In this document: positions 61,595 to 63,565 of the stretch, in pieces | Layout: the number at the start of each line of letters is the position of its first letter | Numbering within the stretch: position 1 is the first letter of the stretch | Notes under the pieces: model-generated | The model's database searches: none | Seen by the model: the letters and a program-made list of their open reading frames with translations, nothing else | What the model was told of the DNA's origin: nothing | Program-made: the position numbers and the translations under genes | NCBI RefSeq assembly: GCF_002836255.1 | Contig: NZ_PJAU01000032.1 | Location: forward strand, 124,001 to 188,000 | Direction: 5' to 3' | Origin: Colwellia sp. 75C3 | GTDB taxonomy: Bacteria > Pseudomonadota > Gammaproteobacteria > Enterobacterales > Alteromonadaceae | Length of the DNA: 64,000 nt

Positions 61595-61651
61595 ATGAAT
61601 ACAGCAATAACAAACATAACATTAATTTGGTGGTGGCATAACTCGACATAA
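61595..61651 (+). CDS. trpL: trp operon leader peptide 1 (WWW)
   Basis: An 18-codon ORF, MNTAITNITLIWWWHNST, with three consecutive Trp codons (61628-61636). AAGG lies about 10 nt before the ATG. It precedes a classical attenuator: region 1, CATAACTC (61637-61644), just after the Trp codons, pairs with region 2 (61654-61661). The ribosome would stall here when Trp-tRNA is scarce. It is too short for most gene finders. Confidence 0.85.
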   Translation: MNTAITNITLIWWWHNST

Positions 61652-61661
61652 TTGGGTTGTG
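61637..61661 (+). promoter_or_regulatory. trp leader 1:2 pairing region (pause/antiterminator)
   Basis: CATAACTC pairs over eight positions (two G-U) with GGGTTGTG. The GGGTT part (61654-61658) can instead pair with AACCC at the 5' arm of the terminator, giving the competing antiterminator. This is the standard trp attenuation logic, read here by eye. Confidence 0.7.
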
Positions 61662-61701
61662 ATAATTGCGTATATCTTAAAAAAGATTAAACAAATTTCA
61701 A

Positions 61702-61729
61702 AAAAACCCGCTCCTCTCAGCGGGTTTTT
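61702..61729 (+). terminator. trp attenuator terminator
   Basis: AAAAACCCGCT pairs with AGCGGGTTTTT around CCTCTC, with a U5 end. It lies about 50 bp after the first leader stop codon and about 150 bp before trpE. Confidence 0.88.
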
Positions 61730-61784
61730 CTCGTTAAAGCGTTCGAGATTTCAGGTTCAAGATAAAGTTAACAAAGGATTTAAA

Positions 61785-61841
61785 ATGAATAGAACAAAAA
61801 CATGGTTTATTTGGTGGCTATTGCCTATTTACGCAGGTTGA
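61785..61841 (+). CDS. Second Trp-rich small ORF between attenuator and trpE
   Basis: An 18-codon ORF, MNRTKTWFIWWLLPIYAG, with Trp codons at positions 7, 10 and 11 plus Phe and Tyr. AAAGGA lies about 7 nt before the ATG, a good ribosome site. It ends 38 bp before trpE and no terminator follows. It could be a second leader peptide that couples translation to Trp supply, a remnant of leader duplication (both contain ATTTGGTGG), or a chance ORF. Confidence 0.6.
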   Translation: MNRTKTWFIWWLLPIYAG

Positions 61842-61879
61842 CAATTTTTCTTTAAATAAACTCTATAGAAGTAATCAAT

Positions 61880-63565
61880 ATGACAAAAAATATACCCCGT
61901 ACTAATTTACCTAGTAACAATGGTGCATCTCTTATCGGAGTGAACACCATACAAGATAGTACTCACTATCAAAATGACCCGTTAAGTGTCTACCAATTAT
62001 TATGTCACCAACAACAGCATAATATATTGTTAGAATCTGCCGAGATTGATAAGAAGCATTTGTTAAAAAGCCTATTATTAACTGATGCCGCAGTAAAAAT
62101 TGTTTGTAATGGCCATTCTGTCACTTTTTCTGCTCTCACATTAAATGGTGAAAGCGCGGTTGATTTTGCAGCAGCTCAATTAGAAGCACACGCAAAAATA
62201 AGTATTGCTGATGATGGAAAATCATTTCAAGCAACATTTAGCGAGGTTGCTAAAGATCTTGATGAAAAGGCTCGTCTAAGTGCAACAAATCCATTGCACA
62301 GCCTGCGATTATTCAATCAACTCACCGATGATAAAAACCACCCTTTCTCCGTGTTTTTAGGTGGTGTTTTTGCCTTTGACCTTATGGCTATTGCAGAGCA
62401 ATTGCCCGCAGTTGCTGATGGTGATAATACTTGTCCAGATTTTGTTTATTACTTAGCTGAAACGTTAGTGATTATTGATCATGAATTACAAAGCACAGAA
62501 ATCATTGGTAATATTTTCAATTACAACAACGCTGAAAAATCTAAACAAAGCCAATTAGCTATCTCCAGCCGTGTTGCCCATATTAAAGAGACCCTAGCTA
62601 GTTCTATTGATGCCGAACAGGTATCGCAATTAAGCCCTTCATTTGATGATGTTGCTAACAAGCAAGAATTTAATGAACAATTGAAAGTTGATATTAGTGA
62701 CGAACGTTATTGTGAGATTGTTGACCAATTAAAAGAAAATATTCGAGCCGGGGATATTTTTCAAGTAGTACCTTCTCGTACATTTACCTTACCTTGTTTT
62801 GATTCCATTGCCGCTTATAAGGCACTCAAGCTTAGTAATCCTAGTCCCTATATGTTTTATCTAAAAGATAGCGACTTTTGTATTTTTGGTGCTTCTCCCG
62901 AATCCGCATTAAAATACCAAGCCAGTAATCGTCATGTAGAGATTTATCCTATTGCCGGAACACGTCCTCGCGGTTTCGATAAGCAGGGTAATATTTCATT
63001 AGACCTAGACAGTCGTATTGAACTAGAACTAAGACAGGACAAAAAAGAATCAGCTGAGCATATTATGCTGGTAGATTTAGCACGAAATGACATTGCTAGA
63101 GTTTCCCAACCCGGTACTCGTTATGTTGCCGAGTTACTTAAAGTAGACCGCTACTCTCATGTGATGCACTTAGTTTCTCGAGTATGCGGTACGTTACAAA
63201 CAGATTTAGATGCTTTACACGCCTATCAGGCTTGTATGAATATGGGCACACTTTCTGGCGCACCTAAAGTCAAAGCGACGTCACTTATTAGAGAAGTAGA
63301 AGGTAAAAGGCGCGGTAGTTACGGTGGCGCTGTTGGTTACTTAACTGGCACAGGTGAAATGGATACTTGTATTGTAATACGTTCTGCCTTTGTTAAAGAC
63401 AATATTGCTCAAGTACAAGCGGGAGCTGGTGTTGTTTATGACTCAGACCCAATCAGTGAAGCCAATGAAACGAGGCAAAAAGCGCAAGCGGTTCTTAACG
63501 CTATTAGTAAAGCTAATGCCATTTTCACTGCCAACACGTCAGCAAAGGAGCAAGCCAATGACTAA
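61880..63565 (+). CDS. trpE: Anthranilate synthase component I
   Basis: Converts chorismate to anthranilate with ammonia from TrpG, the first step of tryptophan synthesis. The 561 residues (about 40 longer than E. coli) include the N-terminal feedback site with LLESAEIDKKHL near residue 50 and PSPYMFYLKD near 315, and the chorismate-binding domain with AGDIFQVVPSRTF, GASPES, IAGTRPRG, EHIMLVDLARNDIARV, GTLSGAPK and RRGSYGGAVGY. Trp feedback inhibition is likely. ATG 61880 follows AGAAG. Its stop overlaps the start of trpG by 8 bp. Confidence 0.97.
   Translation: MTKNIPRTNLPSNNGASLIGVNTIQDSTHYQNDPLSVYQLLCHQQQHNILLESAEIDKKHLLKSLLLTDAAVKIVCNGHSVTFSALTLNGESAVDFAAAQLEAHAKISIADDGKSFQATFSEVAKDLDEKARLSATNPLHSLRLFNQLTDDKNHPFSVFLGGVFAFDLMAIAEQLPAVADGDNTCPDFVYYLAETLVIIDHELQSTEIIGNIFNYNNAEKSKQSQLAISSRVAHIKETLASSIDAEQVSQLSPSFDDVANKQEFNEQLKVDISDERYCEIVDQLKENIRAGDIFQVVPSRTFTLPCFDSIAAYKALKLSNPSPYMFYLKDSDFCIFGASPESALKYQASNRHVEIYPIAGTRPRGFDKQGNISLDLDSRIELELRQDKKESAEHIMLVDLARNDIARVSQPGTRYVAELLKVDRYSHVMHLVSRVCGTLQTDLDALHAYQACMNMGTLSGAPKVKATSLIREVEGKRRGSYGGAVGYLTGTGEMDTCIVIRSAFVKDNIAQVQAGAGVVYDSDPISEANETRQKAQAVLNAISKANAIFTANTSAKEQAND

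Follow-up and report, generated by a model that had tools for sequence, protein, structure and literature searches.

The trp operon is the standard example of attenuation, and in Colwellia sp. 75C3 its leader region carries two small Trp-rich reading frames, one on each side of the attenuator terminator. An earlier note on this stretch of 64,000 nucleotides (the window) had read the first frame, leader 1, as part of an orthodox attenuator and had pointed to a second frame, ORF2, with a ribosome site past the terminator and just before trpE. Both readings hold, and they raise the question of what a second leader peptide might do behind an attenuator.

Two leader frames before trpE

The elements of the region are listed by position in the window.

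61595–61651, plus strand: leader peptide 1 (trpL), MNTAITNITLIWWWHNST, stop TAA
61625–61733, plus strand: Trp attenuator region, match to Rfam RF00513 Trp_leader (34.9 bits, below the curated threshold of 41 bits; E 5.2e-05)
61700–61731, no strand assigned: attenuator terminator hairpin CCCGC...GCGGG, then a T run
61774–61778, plus strand: Shine–Dalgarno-like AAGGA of ORF2, 6 nt 5′ of its ATG
61785–61841, plus strand: ORF2, the second leader peptide, MNRTKTWFIWWLLPIYAG, UGA stop
61803–61838, plus strand: conserved C-terminal block of ORF2, WFIWWLLPIYAG, residues −12 to −1 from the stop
61839–61842, plus strand: stop tetranucleotide TGAC of ORF2
61842–61879, plus strand: G-poor spacer of 38 nt from the ORF2 stop to the trpE ATG
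61880–63565, plus strand: trpE, anthranilate synthase component I (NF010079 and TIGR00565 over cut-off)

The gene upstream lies on the minus strand, and its product presumably resembles a PHP-domain protein.

Leader 1 has the look of an ordinary trp attenuator leader, with Trp codons followed by a terminator hairpin and a T run. The Rfam Trp_leader alignment takes in this hairpin; the terminator scan named it on the minus strand only. Among the 99 distinct ORF2 loci left once identical stretches had been removed, a WWH-type leader pattern lies upstream of ORF2 in 97 and farther upstream in the remaining two (L072 and L080), and the attenuator hairpin was called in 90 of 97 relatives' loci and is visible by eye in the other seven. 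Leader 1 is 16 to 26 codons long within the genus and ends on TAA in 78, TAG in 17 and TGA in 2 of 97 loci. A TrpE tree covering 84 of the 99 loci was built with FastTree and rooted at the midpoint. On it, third positions in leader 1 changed only three times for His and twice for Asn, against 17 times for Ser, and GGGTT[GA]TGA, which can pair with the His/Asn stretch, is found downstream in 74 of 84 loci. The near-fixed third positions and the retained pairing partner indicate an RNA-level constraint of the attenuator. Pairing 1:2 is thus backed by conserved nucleotides; pairing 2:3 was judged by eye only.

ORF2 resembles a trp attenuator leader (RF00513) in being Trp-rich and in lying in the same leader region as leader 1 and the hairpins, but what is conserved in it is the peptide, and it lacks a terminator of its own. 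The scan called no terminator-like site from 61842 to 61879, the interval before trpE where a ribosome-mediated attenuator with ORF2 as its leader would have one. Rfam searches of the plus strand up to E 1 returned nothing covering ORF2, with a Phe_leader match (E 0.86) on the minus strand; a Pfam search with the doubled ORF2 peptide gave no match, and two weak plasmid matches to the peptide had E values of 4 and 10. The Trp codons of ORF2 begin 77, 68 and 65 nt 5′ of the trpE ATG, farther away than the 40–60 nt given in the earlier note, and the stop lies 38 nt 5′ of it.

Conservation and reach of the ORF2 peptide

Relatives were gathered through TrpE first, not through ORF2. TrpE was found in all 39 genomes of the genus, and the upstream DNA was readable in 38 of them (in the other the contig ends there). 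The only filter then applied was an ATG frame of 15–22 codons with at least three Trp, and ORF2 was in frame in 38 of 38 genomes; conservation in close relatives, named beforehand as the test that could refute a coding role, therefore speaks for the frame. All 38 genus loci carry the block WF[IL]WWL[LQ]PIYAG, in a set free of residue invariance imposed by a search pattern. Synonymous and nonsynonymous change, the other comparison suggested at the outset, gave pN/pS values for the last 12 residues of 0.063 in the genus (25 distinct versions) and 0.070 over the 99 loci, the latter found with a pattern that demands most Trp, Pro, Tyr, Ala and Gly codons, so that invariance there is partly by construction. 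Immediately upstream, codons −16 to −13 have a pN/pS of 0.52, compared with 0.07 in the C-terminal block.

ORF2 is 18 or 20 codons long, with an N terminus that varies and a C-terminal register to the stop that is fixed, as in leaders of the TnaC and SpeFL kind. A chain anchored at the peptidyl-transferase centre would be expected to show this combination. Equal lengths of 18 codons for the two frames, to which meaning had been attached, are accidental given the range seen for leader 1. A Shine–Dalgarno-like motif of at least three letters precedes ORF2 in 98 of 99 loci. On the tree, third positions changed 11 times at Gly(−1), 13 at Ala(−2), 14 at Tyr(−3), 21 at Pro(−5) and 18 at Leu(−7); slower were Phe(−11), Ile(−4) and residue −6, with 3, 4 and 5 changes. 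Synonymous sites of ORF2 are therefore mostly, not all, free, and ORF2 is mostly the reverse of leader 1, being conserved as peptide rather than as RNA.

Beyond the genus, the strict pattern WFxWWxxPIYAG matched 63 of 246 genomes of the family, spread over 15 of 52 genera, whereas a reversed-pattern control matched 0 of 246; with the 38 of 38 genus genomes, this led us to reject a chance ORF. Among 108 family genomes searched with TrpE, all but one of the 41 whose TrpE is closest carry ORF2, these 41 being 40 taken by score plus one (G094) whose TrpE is split; the line at 41 was drawn where ORF2 ends and marks no clear step in TrpE identity (61% above, 60% below). The one exception, L134, comes from a genome that is 80% complete. 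From 130 to 67 nt ahead of trpE it has a frame about as long as ORF2 (MIIMKVIRWRIRWQLFSEQE) that keeps Trp at −12 and −8 but lacks PIYAG and ends in TAA-A in place of TGAC; it looks like a decayed ORF2. For the other 67 family genomes, the region upstream of trpE could be read in 37 and contained ORF2 in none, and the strict pattern found no match in any of the 67. A looser pattern matched 8 of 295 genomes of the order, all from the same family, with 0 of 271 from other families, and 2 of 274 in a sample of the class, both again from the family.

A scan of 84,980 species genomes yielded 82 stretches, of which 77 are ORF2. In 80 of these stretches, 75 carry ORF2, lying before trpE in 57, before a DAHP synthase gene in 15 and near the fetched end in 3; the remaining two, L254 and L255, also carry it. 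The five others (three Streptomyces, one Verrucomicrobia and one Bacteroides) have no in-frame ATG and look like chance. The ORF2 stretches are titled Colwellia, Thalassotalea, Thalassomonas, Litorilituus, Cognaticolwellia and Pseudocolwellia, together with some unplaced Alteromonadaceae, Colwelliaceae and Gammaproteobacteria and one Endozoicomonas. In the last of these (L251, Endozoicomonas sp. G2_1), ORF2 is the same as in L072, a locus of the window's family, and the organism label is doubtful.

The UGAC stop and the next start codon

The ORF2 stop is TGA in 95 of the 99 distinct loci, and the next base is C in all 95; within the genus TGAC is found in 38 of 38. Searches that made no demand on the stop, which supplied 93 of the 99 loci, returned TGAC in 89, TAA in 3 and TAG in 1, and the other six, from the species scan, which demanded TAA or TGA, all have TGAC. 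The four loci with TAA or TAG (L042, L072, L073 and L135) keep ORF2; three of them end in PLYAG, and three other PLYAG loci keep TGAC. As background, long ORFs in the same stretches use TGA for 58 of 511 stops, with C following in 17% of those. On the tree, stop position 2 changed twice, position 3 once and base +4 once, compared with 14–24 changes at each of bases +5 to +13. With peptide and UGAC slow and their neighbours free, selection acts on both and ends there. UGA is read by RF2 and not RF1, and is described in an excerpt of PMC6764699 as the leakiest bacterial stop, with T favoured after it. The conserved chain end, its fixed register, the UGAC and the free N terminus together point to an action on the ribosome at termination by RF2.

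The distance to the following gene is also narrow. From the ORF2 stop to the next ATG, with start codons chosen by script, there are 28–39 nt in 90 of 98 loci, trpE and DAHP synthase cases together; eight outlying gaps measure 24, 45, 50, 55, 74, 81, 96 and 145 nt, with the peptide kept. The distance from the leader 1 Trp codons to ORF2 ranges from 111 to 391 nt. In 20 of 108 family genomes, ORF2 and trpE are separated by a DAHP synthase gene (NF006421 and TIGR01361 over cut-off, with a Pfam ferredoxin-like domain), and at E 1e-60 this gene was not found anywhere else in the 108. The arrangement is seen at 18 of 84 tree tips and needs two changes; the gene is the first of the trp operon in the subclade loci L069, L074–L077, L086–L106 and L108. 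Because the spacing is about the same whichever gene follows, ORF2 seems to go with the next start codon, although the distance is not absolute. An effect of ORF2 on trpE translation, as first proposed, is therefore likely, and would fall on whichever start codon comes next.

The downstream ribosome site is unpaired at 0.51, compared with 0.48 in shuffled sequence (47 loci), and an RNA switch hiding it is thus unsupported as a read-out, as the site is no more hidden than in shuffled sequence. The spacer up to the Shine–Dalgarno motif contains 5.0% G and 19.1% C, and is thus G-poor but only about 35 nt long for a candidate site of Rho loading. Separately, extra stretches, some with inverted-repeat ends by eye, lie between attenuator and ORF2 in L072/L251 and L080, and between ORF2 and DAHP synthase in L090 and L108; ORF2 is intact in all of them.

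Proposed arrest at termination and other readings of ORF2

We propose that ORF2 acts in cis as a nascent-chain arrest leader, the second of two serial ribosome-based controls of the trp operon, a reading to which we give an even chance; its mechanism is probably that of a new termination-arrest leader peptide. A transcript that has passed attenuation would carry ORF2, which would then be translated. Once Gly occupies the P site and UGA-C the A site, the nascent WFxWWLxPxYAG, lying in the upper part of the exit tunnel, would slow or block release by RF2; tryptophan, or a metabolite close to it in the pathway, would probably tune the delay. The delay would set the usage of the next start codon, that of trpE or, in one subclade, of DAHP synthase. 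The most likely sign is less translation of the first gene when tryptophan is plentiful, which would fit the operon's purpose. We infer translation, stalling, dependence on RF2, the ligand and the sign of control; L-Trp as the ligand is guessed from the nature of the operon and from how the three Trp residues are spaced.

The nearest known parallel is TnaC, in which, according to an excerpt of PMC8429421, free L-Trp lodges against W12, I15 and D16, and RF2 has its GGQ loop blocked. Like TnaC as described there, ORF2 is a short leader peptide that ends on UGA, a stop read by RF2. Both have Lys and then Trp-Phe about 11–14 residues before the stop, with K at −14 in 83 of 99 ORF2 loci and W-F at −12/−11. 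Positions i, i+3 and i+4 of ORF2 are all Trp, and the same spacing separates the TnaC residues W12, I15 and D16 that contact free L-Trp (PMC8429421, same excerpt). The two are, however, out of register: in the E. coli record W12 of TnaC is 13 residues before the stop, whereas the corresponding Trp of ORF2 is at −12, with W at −9 in place of D16 and G at −1 in place of P24, so that W12, D16 and P24 have no counterparts in register. The +4 base is C in ORF2 and U in E. coli tnaC, the next gene is usually 28–39 nt away and not 220, and ORF2 precedes a biosynthetic rather than a catabolic operon, behind a classical attenuator. Judged from the two peptides, the relation is one of resemblance, not homology. 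A more specific version of the proposal, in which ORF2 arose independently of TnaC as a new arrest peptide, sensing tryptophan while RF2 terminates its chain and repressing a biosynthetic operon from behind a classical attenuator, seems to us somewhat short of an even chance.

Two other systems are likened to ORF2 by description, without sequence comparison. Termination arrest on a leader ORF by peptide and metabolite together, as proposed for ORF2, is reported for SpeFL, which in the excerpted account uses RF1 and L-ornithine instead (PMC8429421). Two leader peptides also precede one gene in ermBL/ermBL2, an arrangement that, unlike ORF2, is induced by erythromycin (excerpt of PMC8274638). 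Our searches of the open-licence literature yielded no description of the ORF2 peptide or of a two-peptide trp leader, in agreement with the earlier note, which knew of none.

The read-out is the weakest step of the arrest model. From the paused P-site codon to the next start there are 34–45 nt (44 nt in the window), a distance at which not much RNA stays free but the ribosome site need not be covered; with ribosome footprints of the usual size, 44 nt probably leaves that site uncovered, which makes simple occlusion doubtful. According to an excerpt of PMC5373646, translation of an overlapping gene in E. coli may increase when ribosomes are detained at the stop that precedes it; this effect has the opposite sign to the proposed repression, and the opposite sign could therefore apply to ORF2 as well.

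Other readings explain part of the same evidence. The strong conservation of amino acids would also suit a small peptide that is released and functions in trans. Such a case has been reported in Sinorhizobium meliloti (PMC7298713), where the trp leader peptide peTrpL is said to have an extra role in trans; ORF2 would share with it the nature of a Trp leader peptide with a further role, but peTrpL is the attenuator peptide itself, whereas ORF2 is an additional peptide whose stop codon is constrained. We regard a trans-acting ORF2 peptide as unlikely, as a released peptide needs neither UGA, nor the following C, nor a narrow distance to the next gene, and as the strong conservation starts 12 residues from the stop rather than at the N terminus.

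Similarly improbable, in our judgement, is reinitiation or coupling without any ligand, in which slow termination at UGAC hands ribosomes or subunits to the start about 35 nt away. The 28–39 nt spacing in 90 of 98 loci, the two different next genes and a leaky stop (PMC6764699, in excerpt) would all suit it, and the pause it invokes is common to the arrest model, with which it partly overlaps; such strict conservation of residues, however, is not something that it requires.

Slightly less likely again is a Trp-codon sensor, in which starvation for Trp-tRNA pauses ribosomes at the three Trp codons of ORF2 and alters trpE translation. Three Trp codons are present in every locus (38 of 38 in the genus, where the filter demanded at least three Trp, and 99 of 99, where the pattern demanded them). 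Codon starvation, however, needs no conserved non-Trp residues, register or UGAC, and so leaves the conserved Phe, Leu, Pro, Tyr, Ala and Gly, the fixed distance to the stop and the UGAC unexplained; moreover, no alternative RNA structure was seen around the next ribosome site. Stalling at the Trp codons, which the earlier note had made the key step, is for these reasons unsupported in that role.

Recoding at UGAC, through readthrough by Trp-tRNA or a prfB-like +1 frameshift, is very improbable. Programmed frameshifts of the prfB type have a conserved slippery P-site codon before UGAC, whereas the corresponding Gly codon of ORF2 is GGA in 65, GGT in 19 and GGC in 15 of 99 loci and so offers no conserved slippery codon. 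The leakiness of UGA, with T favoured after it (excerpt of PMC6764699), might allow readthrough, but the in-frame extension ranges from one codon to hundreds, and bases +5 to +13 change freely. A DNA or RNA element such as a −35 box over the stop, suggested by GGT-TGA-CA in the window, which reads TTGACA, has just as little to commend it, as the base before TGA changed 11 times and the base after TGAC 14 times on the tree, no plus-strand promoter-like site was called, and synonymous sites of ORF2 mostly vary.

Arrest of the ORF2 chain at its stop codon is thus the reading that we prefer, and a duplicate leader is one conceivable source of such a peptide. When leader 1 and ORF2 of the window are aligned at the ATG, 26 of 57 bases agree, compared with a shuffled mean of 15.8 and with 26 reached in 13 of 5,000 shuffles; around the shared TGGTGG, identity over 97 loci is 0.355, compared with 0.280 when shuffled. 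The likeness is slightly above chance, and the duplication suggested at the outset is possible. Outside the ORF2 group, tandem Trp-rich leaders occur in 4 of 37 upstream regions (L148, L155, L158 and L161), each leader with its own hairpin by eye, 300–520 nt before trpE; they are apparent tandem trp attenuators in other genera of the family and make duplication followed by terminator loss conceivable. ORF2 may accordingly be a duplicate leader that has shed its terminator and turned into another kind of device.

The regulatory setting in the family may also favour control by the ribosome. TrpR (PF01371) was over the curated cut-off in 0 of 106 family genomes, with five weaker matches, one of them in the window's genome, in a search that detected the E. 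coli TrpR control. As a cause of ORF2, TrpR loss is uninformative, since the count is 0 of 106 with or without ORF2; the absence of TrpR over the cut-off suggests that much of the regulation may fall to translation-based mechanisms. Should arrest be demonstrated, ORF2 would offer a small and independent case for comparing how a nascent chain blocks RF2. A second, strongly conserved leader peptide with a near-invariant UGAC would show two serial ribosome-based sensors acting on one operon and, if the proposal is true, a single mRNA on which a charged-tRNA sensor and a free-tryptophan sensor stand in series.
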